Shown here: positions 5,256-19,876 of the stretch, piece by piece
Layout: every line of letters starts with the position of its first letter
Position numbering within the stretch: the first letter of the stretch is position 1
DNA from: Arhodomonas aquaeolei DSM 8974
GTDB taxonomy: Bacteria; Pseudomonadota; Gammaproteobacteria; Nitrococcales; Nitrococcaceae
Assembly (NCBI RefSeq): GCF_000374645.1
Contig: NZ_KB894801.1
Span: 62,001 to 126,000, forward strand
Direction of reading: 5' to 3'
Length of the DNA: 64,000 nucleotides
Program-made: the position numbers and the translations under genes
Notes under the pieces: generated by a model
Told to the model about the DNA's origin: nothing
Databases searched by the model: none
What the model saw: the letters and a program-made list of their open reading frames with translations, nothing else

Positions 5256-5284
5256 CTGCACGGGATCACGGAGTTCAGGGGCAG

Positions 5285-5354
5285 GTCGGCTGCTCCCGGC
5301 AGCCGACGTTGCCGGCACCGCAGGACGGGATGTTGGCTGCCAGGAGGGGCCAAC
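5285..5354. repeat. Two-hairpin element (family A), minus orientation
   Basis: A perfect 9-bp hairpin GTCGGCTGC-TCCCG-GCAGCCGAC (5285-5307) and an imperfect one beginning GTTGGCTGC (5332-5354) flank a spacer. The central 42 bases (5304-5345) are found in inverted orientation at 18926-18967 with two differences, by direct comparison. Confidence 0.8.
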
Positions 5355-5425
5355 CTTGGGGTGGCTCCATCCTGGATGACGGTTCCACAGGACCCGCCGG
5401 TCCCGGGAGCACCCCTCTCCCCCGG

Positions 5426-5450
5426 CCCCTCTCCCGCAAGGGGAGAGGGG
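5426..5450. repeat. CCCCTCTCCC / GGGAGAGGGG hairpin
   Basis: Perfect 10-bp arms CCCCTCTCCC (5426-5435) and GGGAGAGGGG (5441-5450) around the loop GCAAG. A third, direct copy of the pyrimidine arm lies just upstream (5412-5422). Similar pyrimidine/purine hairpins are common intergenic elements in many high-GC proteobacteria. Confidence 0.8.
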
Positions 5451-5463
5451 GGCGCGGCCGCAG

Positions 5464-5486
5464 GTCGGCTGCTCTGGGCAGCCGAC
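5464..5486. repeat. Family A hairpin, second copy in cluster I
   Basis: GTCGGCTGC (5464-5472), loop TCTGG, GCAGCCGAC (5478-5486). The stem is a perfect 9 bp. The arms are identical to those at 5285-5307 while the loop differs, so selection or copying appears to act on the stem. Confidence 0.8.
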
Positions 5487-5613
5487 ATCCTCGCCACACC
5501 GGAAATGGACCGGTCGCCCGACCGCAGCCGACATTCGCCGGACGTGGGGGTGCTTCCGCACCGTGGGACAGGCGCCGCAGTCGTGTGACCTCTCGCGCCA
5601 TCTGCGACGGCAT

Positions 5614-5643
5614 GTCGCACACGGGCCCACGACCGTGCACGAC
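5614..5643. repeat. Family B inner hairpin, cluster I
   Basis: GTCGCACACGG (5614-5624) and CCGTGCACGAC (5633-5643) pair except at two adjacent positions. The same two non-pairing positions occur in the unit at 18789-18817. It ends 22 bp before the bdhA stop codon. Confidence 0.65.
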
Positions 5644-5665
5644 CGACCGGATGGTGTCGCGTCCG

Positions 5666-16407: not shown

Positions 16408-17828
16408 TGGAGGCCCGGACCCACACGTTCAAGGCGAATGCGCGCGCGGCCCTCGCCGATGACAACCTGCGCACGGCGCTGGCCTCGGCCAAGGGCGGAT
16501 TCGTCGCCAAGCGTGCCGGGGCGGTGGAGGCCTTCCCGGACTTCGAGGCGCTGCGCGAGCGCGGGGCGGCGATCAAGGACCACACCCTGGCCAACCTGGA
16601 CCACTACCTCGCCCGCTTCACCGCGAACGTCAGCGAGCGCGGCGGCCAGGTGCACTACGCCGGCGACGACGCGGCGGCCCGTGAGATCATCCTCGGCATC
16701 TGCCGTGATGCCGGGGCGCGGCGGGTGATCAAGTCCAAGACCATGGCCGGCGAGGAGATCTCGCTCAACGAGGCCCTGGAGCGCGAGCACGAGCTGGTGG
16801 AGACGGACCTCGGCGAGTACATCATCCAGCTTGCCAAGGAGCCGCCGAGTCACATCATCGCACCGGCGGTGCACAAGACCCGCGCGGACATCACACGGCT
16901 GTTCGACGAGCATCACCACCACCGCATCGACGGTCCGCTGCGCCCTGCCCCGGAGCTGGTGGCCGAGGCGCGGCAGGTGCTGCGCGAACGTTTCCTGGAG
17001 GCGGACGTCGACATCAGCGGCGCAAACTTCCTGATCGCCGACACCGGCACGGTCACGCTGGTCACCAACGAGGGCAACGCCGATCTCGGCACCACCCTGC
17101 CCCGGGTGCACATTGTCATCGCGGGCATCGAGAAGCTCGTGCCCGGTACCGAGGAGGCATCGACGATGCTGCGCCTGCTCGGGCGCAGCGCCACCGGGCA
17201 GGACATGAGCGCGTATACCACCTTCCTCACGGGCGCACGACGCCCGGACGACCCCGACGGCCCGGACGAGTACCACGTGGTGCTGCTCGATAACGGCCGT
17301 ACGGGCATGCTGGGTAACGAGTTCCGCTCCATGCTCCGCTGCATCCGCTGCGGCGCGTGCATGAACCACTGCCCGGTGTACGGCGCCGTGGGCGGGCACA
17401 CCTACGGCTGGGTCTACCCCGGCCCCATGGGCCAGGTGCTCACGCCGATGTTCCGCGGCCTGGACGGCACTGTGGATCTGCCCAACGCCTGTACCCTGAA
17501 CGGGCGCTGCGGCAGCGTCTGTCCGGTGAAGATCCCCCTGCCCGACCTCATCCGCCACCTGCGGGACTGGCAGTTCGACGCCCACCTGGGGCATCGCACG
17601 ACCCGCTGGGCGCTGCATGCCTGGGGCTGGGTGGCCCGGCGTCCGCGCCTGTATCACCCCCTCGCGCGGATCGGCACCCGGGTGCTGCGCTGGATCGGCG
17701 GCCGCCGCGGCGGCGCGGCGCGGCGCATGCCCCTGGCCGGCGGCTGGACGGACGCGCGTGACCTGCCCCTGCCCTCGGGCACAACGTTCCAGGCGGCCTG
17801 GCGGGCGAAGCGCAAGGAGGACGCATGA
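16407..17828 (+). CDS. lutB: Lactate utilisation Fe-S protein LutB
   Basis: A 473-residue subunit of the LutABC complex. The N-terminal half is the LUD domain (AGEEISLNEALE, ISGANFLIADTGT, GIEKLVPGTEEA). The C-terminal half carries two 4Fe-4S motifs, CIRCGACMNHCP (312-323) and CTLNGRCGSVCP beginning at 362, that relay electrons. After them comes a basic helical tail (to residue 473) found in YkgF-type proteins. I chose the ATG at 16407 because it overlaps the lutA stop and begins at the family's N-terminus. Confidence 0.93.
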   Translation: MEARTHTFKANARAALADDNLRTALASAKGGFVAKRAGAVEAFPDFEALRERGAAIKDHTLANLDHYLARFTANVSERGGQVHYAGDDAAAREIILGICRDAGARRVIKSKTMAGEEISLNEALEREHELVETDLGEYIIQLAKEPPSHIIAPAVHKTRADITRLFDEHHHHRIDGPLRPAPELVAEARQVLRERFLEADVDISGANFLIADTGTVTLVTNEGNADLGTTLPRVHIVIAGIEKLVPGTEEASTMLRLLGRSATGQDMSAYTTFLTGARRPDDPDGPDEYHVVLLDNGRTGMLGNEFRSMLRCIRCGACMNHCPVYGAVGGHTYGWVYPGPMGQVLTPMFRGLDGTVDLPNACTLNGRCGSVCPVKIPLPDLIRHLRDWQFDAHLGHRTTRWALHAWGWVARRPRLYHPLARIGTRVLRWIGGRRGGAARRMPLAGGWTDARDLPLPSGTTFQAAWRAKRKEDA

Positions 17829-18493
17829 GCGACACGGCACAGCGCTTCTTCAGCACCATCCGCCGCGCCCTCGGTCGCGAGGCCGCGCCAGACCCCGAGG
17901 CCATCGAGGCGGAGCGCCGGGCGCTGATGGCGGCGCCCGCGCCGCGCCCGAAATGGAGCGGCGACGACGTCACGCGGCTGCTCACGCGCCTGGAGGCCGC
18001 GGCTGCCACCTCGGAGCGGATCGCCTCCCGCGCAGATATCCCCGCGGCGGTGGCCCGGGTGCTGCTCGATGCCGGGGCCCCCGGCGGGCCGGTGCAGATC
18101 GGTGCCGATCCGCTCCTCGCCGGGCTGGAATGGACGCAGGAAGTGACCGTGGCCAAGGGGATCGATGGCGTGCGCACGGCACCGGCGTCGGTGACGGTGG
18201 CCGTGGCGGGCATCGCGGAGACCGGAACGCTGGTGCTCCGCTCCGGGCCGGATAACCCCACCAGCCTGAATTTCCTGCCCGAACACCACGTCGTGGTGCT
18301 ACGGGCCGGCGACGTCGTGGACTACATGGAGACTGCCTGGGCGCGGCTGCACGCCGACGGCGATCTGCCCCGGACGGTGAACTTCATCACCGGGCCGTCG
18401 CGCACCGGGGATGTGGAGCAGACCATTGAGCTCGGGGCGCATGGACCACGGCGGCTGCACGTGCTGCTGCTGGAAGATCACGACCAGCTGTGA
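17825..18493 (+). CDS. lutC: Lactate utilisation protein LutC (LUD domain)
   Basis: A 222-residue LUD-domain protein, third member of the lactate oxidation complex. The family core is visible: ITxAxxxIAETGTLVLRSG (residues near 120-140), LNFLPEHHVVVLRAGDVV, and the C-terminal FITGPSRTGDVEQTIELGAHGPRRLHVLLLED. The ATG overlaps the lutB stop (ATGA), so translation is coupled. The gene is the last of the operon. Immediately beyond its stop begins the second palindromic repeat cluster, which may protect or terminate the operon mRNA. Confidence 0.93.
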   Translation: MSDTAQRFFSTIRRALGREAAPDPEAIEAERRALMAAPAPRPKWSGDDVTRLLTRLEAAAATSERIASRADIPAAVARVLLDAGAPGGPVQIGADPLLAGLEWTQEVTVAKGIDGVRTAPASVTVAVAGIAETGTLVLRSGPDNPTSLNFLPEHHVVVLRAGDVVDYMETAWARLHADGDLPRTVNFITGPSRTGDVEQTIELGAHGPRRLHVLLLEDHDQL

Positions 18494-18503
18494 CCTTCCG
18501 GCA

Positions 18504-18581
18504 GGTTGTTCACTCGCCACCTCCCCGGGAGAGCGGAGGGACAACCCGGACGACGCTGCCAGCAGGTCCGTGTGAACAACC
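18504..18581. repeat. Family B unit 1 (diverged): 10-bp inverted arms
   Basis: GGTTGTTCAC (18504-18513) is the exact reverse complement of GTGAACAACC (18572-18581), 58 bases apart. The arms occupy the positions of GGTCGTGCAC and GTGTGCGACC in the next unit, showing sequence change with arm complementarity kept. Confidence 0.65.
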
Positions 18582-18608
18582 CTGGACGTTGATCCTGGTC
18601 CGGGGGGC

Positions 18609-18724
18609 GGATGGACGTTCGGGCAGGTCGTGCACCGCAGGCGTGTGACATCCCGGACGGGTCCCGACAGCGTCGCACACGGCCCGCGGCCGTGTGCGAC
18701 CTACCCGAGCTACTCCGGGATAGA
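18609..18724. repeat. Family B unit 2, tandem copy with 13-bp perfect hairpin
   Basis: A 116-bp period is defined by the identical 15-base start GGATGGACGTTCGGG at 18609 and 18725. Inside, GTCGCACACGGCC (18672-18684), loop CGC and GGCCGTGTGCGAC (18688-18700) form a perfect 13-bp stem. An outer arm GGTCGTGCACC (from 18626) can also pair partly with the right-hand arm, so alternative folds are possible. Confidence 0.75.
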
Positions 18725-18830
18725 GGATGGACGTTCGGGTAGCTCGTGCGCCATAAGGCGTGCGACATTCCGGGCCGGTCCCAGCGGCGTCGCACACGGC
18801 CTGCGGTCGTGCACGACCTACCCCCCCCCC
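18725..18830. repeat. Family B unit 3, tandem copy ending in a C10 tract
   Basis: It starts with the same 15 bases as unit 2. The inner hairpin GTCGCACACGGCC (18789-18801) / GGTCGTGCACGAC (18805-18817) pairs except at two adjacent positions. The outer arm GTAGCTCGTGCG pairs with CGTGCACGACCTAC. The unit runs directly into ten consecutive C residues (18821-18830), where unit 2 has only CCC. Confidence 0.7.
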
Positions 18831-18916
18831 GGTGCCCGTCCGCGACGATCTCGTCTGCCGGGCGCAGCCGATCTCGTATGTCTCGGGGTTGCACGGCCAG
18901 GCGACAGATCCCGTAG

Positions 18917-18990
18917 GTTGGCTGCTCCTGGCAGCCAACATCCCCTCCTGCGGTGCCGGCAATGTCGACTACCCCGGGCAGCGGCCGACC
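18917..18990. repeat. Two-hairpin element (family A), plus orientation
   Basis: GTTGGCTGC (18917-18925), loop TCCTG, GCAGCCAAC (18931-18939) is a perfect 9-bp stem. Compared with the GTCGGCTGC stems in cluster I, one C-G pair has become T-A, with both arms changed. A degenerate partner hairpin (GTCGACTAC... GGCCGAC) follows to 18989. Bases 18926-18967 are the inverted match of 5304-5345. Confidence 0.8.
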
Positions 18991-19057
18991 TTGCATTTCC
19001 CGGTGTTGAGGGGGTGAACGGCCAGACGGCTGCACCGCGGTTACGGCGTCGGCCGGA

Positions 19058-19876
19058 TCAATCCCCGCCGGCGGCCGTCTTGTCCCGCGCCTTGGCCTGC
19101 TGGTAGGCGGCCTCCAGGGTGTCGAAATCGCACTCCCCCGGCTGCCGGCCCGTCTCGGCGAGCACGGTCTCCAGGCCCCGGAAACGGCGCTCGAACTTTC
19201 CGTTGGCGGCCCGCAGCGCCTGCTCAGGGTCGCTGCCGAGGTGGCGGCCGAGATTGGCGCAGGCGAACAGCAGATCACCGTATTCCTCGTGGATGTGGTC
19301 ACCGTCGCCGCTCGCCATAGCGTCCTCCAGCTCCGCGAGCTCCTCGCGGAGCTTGGCAATCACCGGCCGTGGCTCGTTCCAGTCGAAGCCGACCCGCGCG
19401 GCACGTTTCTGGAGCTTGACGCTTCGACTGAGCGCCGGGAGCGTGCGCGGGACGTCGTCCAGCAGCCCCGGTTTACGGCCCTCGCCGTCGGCGCGCTGCG
19501 CGCGCTCCGCCGCCTTGATCGACTCCCAGGCGCGGGTCTGGCTTTCCGCGTCGCGTTCCTCCGCCTCGCCGAAGACGTGGGGGTGGCGGCGCACGATCTT
19601 GTCCGCGATGGCGTTGGCGACGTCGTGGAAATCGAAACGCCCCTCCTCCGCGGCGAAGCGGGCGTAGTAGACCACCTGGAAGAGCAGATCCCCGAGCTCG
19701 TCGCGGAGGTGATCGTAGTCGCCCCGCTCGATGGTGTCGGCCACCTCGTAGGCCTCCTCGAGGGTGTGCGGCACGATGCTCCGCCAGTCCTGTTCCAGAT
19801 CCCACGGACAGCCGCCATCGGGGTTGCGCAGGGCGGCCATGATCTCGATCAAACGGTCTACGGGGTGTTGAGGCAT
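19058..19876 (-). CDS. mazG: Nucleoside triphosphate pyrophosphohydrolase MazG
   Basis: A 272-residue house-cleaning NTP pyrophosphatase with two MazG domains. Domain 1 has CPWDLEQDWRSI and EEAYEVADTIE...DELGDLLFQV (the E-x-x-E...E-x-x-D metal site). Domain 2 has LREELAELEDAM and EEYGDLLFACANLGRHLG. The double-domain length matches E. coli MazG (263 residues). Its end faces lutC across repeat cluster II. Its start is divergent from the TetR-type regulator across a 231-bp gap, in which I see only GC-rich sequence and a CCGGCGCCGG palindrome near 20002-20011. Confidence 0.95.
   Translation of the reverse strand: MPQHPVDRLIEIMAALRNPDGGCPWDLEQDWRSIVPHTLEEAYEVADTIERGDYDHLRDELGDLLFQVVYYARFAAEEGRFDFHDVANAIADKIVRRHPHVFGEAEERDAESQTRAWESIKAAERAQRADGEGRKPGLLDDVPRTLPALSRSVKLQKRAARVGFDWNEPRPVIAKLREELAELEDAMASGDGDHIHEEYGDLLFACANLGRHLGSDPEQALRAANGKFERRFRGLETVLAETGRQPGECDFDTLEAAYQQAKARDKTAAGGD

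Follow-up and report, generated by a model that had tools for sequence, protein, structure and literature searches.

The 564-bp intergenic stretch that separates lutC from the convergent mazG gene (positions 18494-19057 of the 64,000-nt stretch of Arhodomonas aquaeolei DSM 8974 DNA analysed here, called the window) most probably consists of mobile-element debris at a convergent gene junction; we put the probability of this account as a whole at roughly 0.82. An old non-autonomous element of ~300 bp, composed of a left end of IS481 type, a REP pair that it had captured and an end module, would have inserted where the stop codons of lutC and mazG overlapped to form a CTAG site. Tandem duplication of its REP part would have followed, as would the gain of a REP from a different family and of another end module; we infer this order of events. 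The copy in the window is now probably without a function of its own, or with an incidental one. The tandem, diverged hairpins of this region are thus explained without a new class of RNA. The account also suggests that a DDE-transposon derivative can take along REP pairs, which are usually linked to RAYT genes, and that convergent genes with overlapping stop codons can offer a CTAG target at which an insertion should do the host little harm.

The upstream gene, lutC (17825-18493, + strand; LUD domain, Pfam PF02589, 93 bits), ends in a TGA stop codon (18491-18493) that falls within the terminal sequence TGTGACC of the element. All parts of the cluster were placed on the + strand. Unit 1, an IS481-family left end with a start-codon hairpin, occupies 18489-18587 according to the covariance model CM R1 (18487-18597 as nhmmer module X) and is followed by a spacer common to dispersed composites (18588-18617). 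Unit 2 (18618-18706; nhmmer module A, 18620-18704) is a REP-A pair, consisting of a REP on the + strand with a GCAG head (about 18621-18649) and an inverted REP on the - strand with a GTAG head (18672-18704). Unit 3 (18707-18823; nhmmer module A, 18736-18821) is a tandem duplicate of the spacer and the REP-A pair. The cluster goes on beyond unit 3 with the right-end module C of the composite, which terminates at CCAG (18836-18903; nhmmer, 55 bits), a copy of REP-B (GTAGGTTGGCTGCTCCTGGCAGCCAACATCC; 18909-18945, nhmmer 18913-18943, 43 bits), a family arrayed around the second RAYT gene of this genome, and a second copy of module C, likewise terminating at CCAG (18957-19025; nhmmer, 44 bits). The convergent neighbour mazG lies at 19058-19876 (- strand; NF007113, 340.6 bits). 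A run of 10 Cs (18821-18830) was seen between unit 3 and the first end module. Within its own genome, a 751-nt query spanning the intergenic stretch has at least 89 matches, a lower bound with 40 of the 184 first-look candidates scored. At 5282-5647, the window holds a second cluster, in which nhmmer identifies one diverged REP-A pair and three copies of REP-B.

An earlier, sequence-only reading of this region had described units 1 to 3 as three diverged tandem copies of one long hairpin. Its description of the structures was accurate: perfect 10-bp arms (GGTTGTTCAC/GTGAACAACC) lie inside 18504-18516 and 18569-18581 in unit 1, unit 2 has a perfect 13-bp hairpin (18672-18684/18688-18700), and the hairpin of unit 3 (18789-18801/18805-18817) pairs at 10/13 positions by Watson-Crick rules and at 11/13 when G-U is counted, with start-to-start spacings of 122 and 116 bp. 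The alternative pairing between neighbouring arms that it had pointed out also exists between units 2 and 3 (18672-18700 with 18789-18817, 79%; 18621-18635 with 18809-18823, 93%), which is what a duplicated palindrome should show. Compared with shuffled sequences, unit 1 alone folds with a z-score of -1.14 (31/200 shuffles fold equally well), unit 2 with -2.34, unit 3 with -2.96 and REP-B with -3.68. The hairpins are real, but they are two different things. The notion of a single tandem family holds for units 2 and 3, which are homologous (84% identity over 68 nt at a spacing of 117 bp, local score 111), but unit 1 resembles unit 2 over a short stretch only.

It could be argued from that short stretch that all three units belong to one REP/BIME family, with unit 1 as the most diverged copy. 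The best ungapped 28-mer shared by units 1 and 2 is in register and 68% identical (19/28; P 0.0002 vs. shuffles, chosen post hoc), and their local alignment scores 25 (P 0.007). However, unit 1 is no closer to unit 3 than shuffled sequence is (local score 16, P 0.49), and a model of IS481 leaders aligns unit 1 from its first to its last position. Moreover, a REP-A pair, whole or partial, came after the leader at 9/9 places in the fetched loci (partial in the first copy of L002, in L004 and in L018), while REP-A pairs in these loci also occur without a leader. We therefore disfavour a single family strongly, as very improbable, and treat the two kinds of hairpin separately.

By sequence comparison, unit 1 is the left end of an IS481-family insertion sequence. 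CM R1, trained on 19 IS481 leaders of which one is that of the genome's own autonomous element (on contig C8) and none is a composite copy, matches 18489-18587 over model positions 1-99 of 99 (38.3 bits, E 9.4e-7), and this is its sole match in the window up to E 1. The model arms fall at 18504-18518 and 18567-18581, with 3/15 pairs non-standard, and GTG occupies the position of the start codon. The related genome G003 has a complete IS481 element whose left end is 77% identical to unit 1 over 96 nt and whose protein is an IS481-family transposase (NF033577, 317.7 bits vs. a cut-off of 224; LZ_Tnp_IS481 and integrase core domains). An IS481 transposase ORF is absent from the cluster, the protein search of the whole genome finding such ORFs only on C8, on C3 and weakly on C26. 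Since the DDE transposase ORF is missing, we class unit 1 as IS481-derived and not as a member of IS481; with the transposase gene gone, the fold in the window would be a relic. In its own genome, CM R1 matches at least seven further places, one being the autonomous C8 element (150 of 921 first-look candidates scored, two weak reverse-strand rows left out). Apart from that autonomous element, the genome-wide search adds no leader place outside the composites.

Units 2 and 3 are, on sequence grounds, tandem copies of a REP pair (BIME) of the GTAG type. Each consists of a REP on the + strand followed by one on the - strand; the left head of unit 2 is GCAG, and both heads of unit 3 are GTAG. Among 31 complete or nearly complete REP-A copies from the fetched loci, the head is GTAG in 24/31 on the left and 22/31 on the right, and 94.2% and 83.9% of the cells of the two stems are paired. 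Allowing up to 3 mismatches, the genome contains 62 copies of the inverted REP, vs. 0 for a reversed control. The duplication covers the spacer and the REP pair, and the four other aligned composites carry one pair each. Similar REP-A-like pairs (GTAGGTCGTGCAC... / ...GTGCACGACCTAC) were seen at three loci (L113, L115 and L120) of G004, a genome from another genus of the same family.

The genome has two RAYT genes (NF047646, 173.6 and 170.4 bits). The one that we call RAYT-A (C3:201590-201991, 170.4 bits) has REP-A on both sides, and the second (C10:42614-43015) adjoins a 125-bp tandem array of REP-B. This array of ~125-bp REP-B pairs (L009 11639-12832, on C10) lies directly downstream of the second RAYT gene and contains a run of Ns. 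As a test for RAYT genes, PF01797 gave a false negative, scoring both below its cut-off (19.2 and 18.3 bits vs. 23), and NF047646 found both. RAYT proteins read the REP hairpin as a single strand, and RAYT-A presumably moves these REP-A repeats. REPs have been proposed to be mobilised by TnpA-REP/RAYT (in parts of PMC8266576 and PMC2817692). Copies of REP-A or REP-B also lie within a few hundred bases of the starts of five contigs (C16, C17, C18, C20 and C31), so these repeats may break the assembly.

The leader (module X), the REP pair and module C recur together as a non-autonomous element of ~300 bp. Five dispersed composites, including that of the window, align pairwise at 74-83% over 274-307 columns, spacers included. 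Composite ends, with boundaries set by eye, abut CTAG or a one-transition variant of it in 14/15 cases (6 exact), the exception being internal to the tandem composite pair of L002. By comparison, these five tetramers account for 1.5% of window positions, and CTAG alone for 0.02%. The composite in the window is flanked by ACCAGC and GCCAGA, a putative duplication that is no longer exact. Over the whole 64-kb window, CTAG occurs 12 times vs. 178.5 expected from base composition. The tandem pair of L002 contains a chimera (1642-1754) in which the left half of a REP-A pair is joined to the right half of the IS481 leader, which suggests recombination or slippage between modules.

How the composite moved can be read in two ways. 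A profile of the IS481 terminal repeat recognises the left end of five composites and the right end (module C) in 0/6, so it is the left end, together with the CTAG-like flanks and the dispersal of the copies, that speaks for movement by an IS481 transposase, which we think likely. The IS481 transposase of this genome is present as two pieces with shared sequence, on C8 and C3, which stop at contig ends and have a different terminal repeat; a matching transposase thus seems to have been lost or to be unassembled. Alternatively, the composite could be a BIME moved by RAYT that acquired an IS481 end by chance and was never moved by an IS481 transposase. The unrecognised right end would agree with this, as would the presence of both REP-A and its RAYT gene in the genome. 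We nevertheless regard it as unlikely: it does not account for CTAG-type sequences at nearly all composite ends or for homology over ~300 bp, spacers included, among the five dispersed copies, and most REP-A pairs in the fetched loci have neither X nor C arranged in this way. An IS481-type unit that carries REPs as cargo fits these observations better and is possibly new; among the matches listed in open-licence PubMed Central, no title concerned such a composite or a CTAG target point at convergent stop codons.

The junction itself was compared in 23 relatives, of which 22 have mazG and five have lutC within the fetched flank of up to 1.5 kb. In G003, lutC and mazG overlap in CTAG (-4 bp), which both genes use as a TAG stop; elsewhere the two genes overlap by 17 bp (G012) or lie 42 (G025), 214 (G024) and 961 bp (G030) apart. 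Profiles of modules X, A, B and C, all of which match the window locus, had no match in the lutC-mazG loci of these five relatives up to E 0.1. The CTAG overlap without modules in G003 indicates that the 564-bp stretch was probably inserted; as the module-free junctions come from other genera, the insertion is bracketed at the level of the family and above. In the window, the TAG of lutC appears to have decayed to CAG, with the gene ending two codons later at the TGA inside the element.

These data also bear on the proposal of the sequence-only reading that the cluster is a new class of tandem structured element or a 3'-UTR RNA after lutABC. A structured RNA of the host, or a bidirectional terminator or stabiliser for lutABC and mazG selected in place, would suit the position between convergent genes, the supply of the lutC stop codon and the strong hairpins of units 2 and 3. 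At the composites examined in this genome, an ORF of at least 120 codons ends within 33 bases of the edge at 8/8 left and 5/6 right flanks, a weak count because, at such a G+C content, long ORFs often arise by chance; for comparison, 6/24 readings at the 12 CTAG sites of the window end an ORF of such length. However, the same junction exists without modules in five relatives, the composites recur at other loci, and the cluster contains no terminator-like site (a stem followed by a T run). A promoter-like site was not found in the cluster either, and a comparison with Rfam found no known RNA family there. We consider a host RNA improbable, and the idea of a new structured class gives way to an IS481-family left end (unit 1) and a duplicated REP pair (units 2 and 3). 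Autonomous IS481 copies show no general preference for convergent stops, an ORF of at least 120 codons running into the site at 4/17 left and 4/16 right flanks; the left count refers to L217-L233 and L160, and L116, the same element as L119, would make a fifth.

The origin of the unit 1 hairpin is best seen in the parent elements. The G003 element and searches with its protein yielded 29 loci with inspected left ends, corresponding to 21 distinct elements, 19 of which have such an end and 2 of which do not. Left out before the count of 19 were seven duplicates (L229, L235, L237 and L239-L242), L236, which has no terminal repeat ahead of its start, and L234/L238, which are a single element (48% identity) without such an end. 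NCTAGN precedes the left end in 18/19 parent elements. With right ends located by requiring CTAG or TTAG, the target duplications are exact copies of NCTAGN in 11/17, share the CTAG core in 5/17 and differ in 1/17, in keeping with the published IS481 target NCTAGN (in part of PMC3053399).

In the minimum-energy fold, at least two bases of the start codon are paired with the inner terminal repeat in 19/19 leaders, vs. 3.5 expected from shuffles, and the leaders fold with a mean z-score of -4.06 (range +0.7 to -6.9). A stem of at least 8 pairs through the start codon was found within range in 14/19 IS481 leaders vs. 0/36 ORF starts of the window; a looser definition of pairing is satisfied by 11 of these 36 control starts. 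Start codon and terminal repeat combine as ATG/CAT in 10, GTG/CAC in 5 and ATG/CAC in 4 of the 19 leaders, the first base of the start codon being unpaired in the last four (ATG opposite CAC). The loop contains an invariant T and a near-invariant G. Among distant IS481-family elements, inspection of 13 loci by eye revealed no clear copy of the hairpin, a weak negative because several start codons could not be fixed or the matched frame was not the gene; in three of them (L191, L201 and L208), pairing near -62 involves one or two bases of the start codon.

The earlier reading had proposed a covariation test over genomic copies, and the outcome differs between the two kinds of hairpin. Across the 19 IS481 leaders, 32 cells of the helix are altered on both sides vs. 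10.1 in shuffles (0/500), and the covariation score is 0.297 vs. 0.106 (0/500). Two weaker measures are less clear: the number of pairs altered on both sides (7/15 vs. 5.0, 25/500 shuffles) is not decisive, and the number of pair types is not above shuffles (280/500). Shifting the partner arm lowers the paired cells from 84.6% to 33-51%. For the REP-A pair (31 copies), covariation is not clearly above shuffles, with the score matched by 35/500 and the changes on both sides by 61/500, and among the genome's own unit 1 copies plus the G003 element it is weak (term -0.08; 3/29 pairs). The suggestion that arm pairing has been under selection thus survives for the fold of unit 1, in the parent IS481 elements, and not for a tandem RNA.

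The predicted hairpin may repress translation of the transposase. A read-through transcript from outside the element would carry both arms and fold over the start codon, hiding it, and one initiated between the arms would be without the left arm and leave the start codon free. The promoter hexamers of the Bordetella pertussis IS481 would lie between the arms; these hexamers and the conserved T and G of the loop fit with an internal transcript start. The hexamers themselves were mapped in B. pertussis (in part of PMC11774165), and the words stem, hairpin and secondary structure do not occur in that article.

We propose, at about even odds, that in a subgroup of IS481 the terminal repeat also serves as a translational lock. 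In read-through transcripts, the same end that the transposase binds would form the left arm and cover the start codon, and these two sequences would change together; non-autonomous descendants would keep the fold, carry REP pairs as passengers and be able to settle harmlessly where convergent stops overlap in CTAG. The terminal repeat and the start codon would co-evolve because both are arms of one hairpin, which gives a testable rule for this subgroup. The start-codon hairpin is possibly new, with no report of it among the matches listed in the open-licence PubMed Central literature. An Rfam scan of 8 IS481 loci returned only an unrelated manganese riboswitch (RF00080, 59 bits), at L222 588-712, near the IS481 element.

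REP/BIME elements and MITEs are well described (in part of PMC3733652). The cluster resembles the IS481 family, with its NCTAGN target, in its left terminal sequence, the position of the leader hairpin and its CTAG-type flanks, but has no transposase gene, no recognisable right terminal repeat and a REP pair inside. With GTAG-tagged REP/BIME elements and their RAYT (TnpA-REP) it shares the GTAG head, the imperfect palindrome, inverted pairs, dozens of copies and a REP-flanked RAYT gene; unlike these, the REP pair lies inside an IS481-type unit and is tandemly duplicated with it. The 62 places counted here are those of the inverted partner, whereas the usually quoted figure of >100 per genome counts single REPs (in part of PMC2817692). 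Like MITEs, the composite is short, repeated, close to genes and without a transposase ORF, with strong hairpins and copies homologous from end to end, but its terminal inverted repeat is recognised at the left end only. The mRNA leader of the IS10 transposase also buries its ribosome-binding site. Structures over the start region of the transposase are known from IS200 and ISPpu9 as well (in parts of PMC3196728 and PMC8450116, respectively). All three share with the prediction made here a 5′ structure over the region of the mRNA in which transposase translation starts; the IS481 subgroup would differ in that the inner terminal repeat itself supplies the left arm, with the start codon lying within the right arm.
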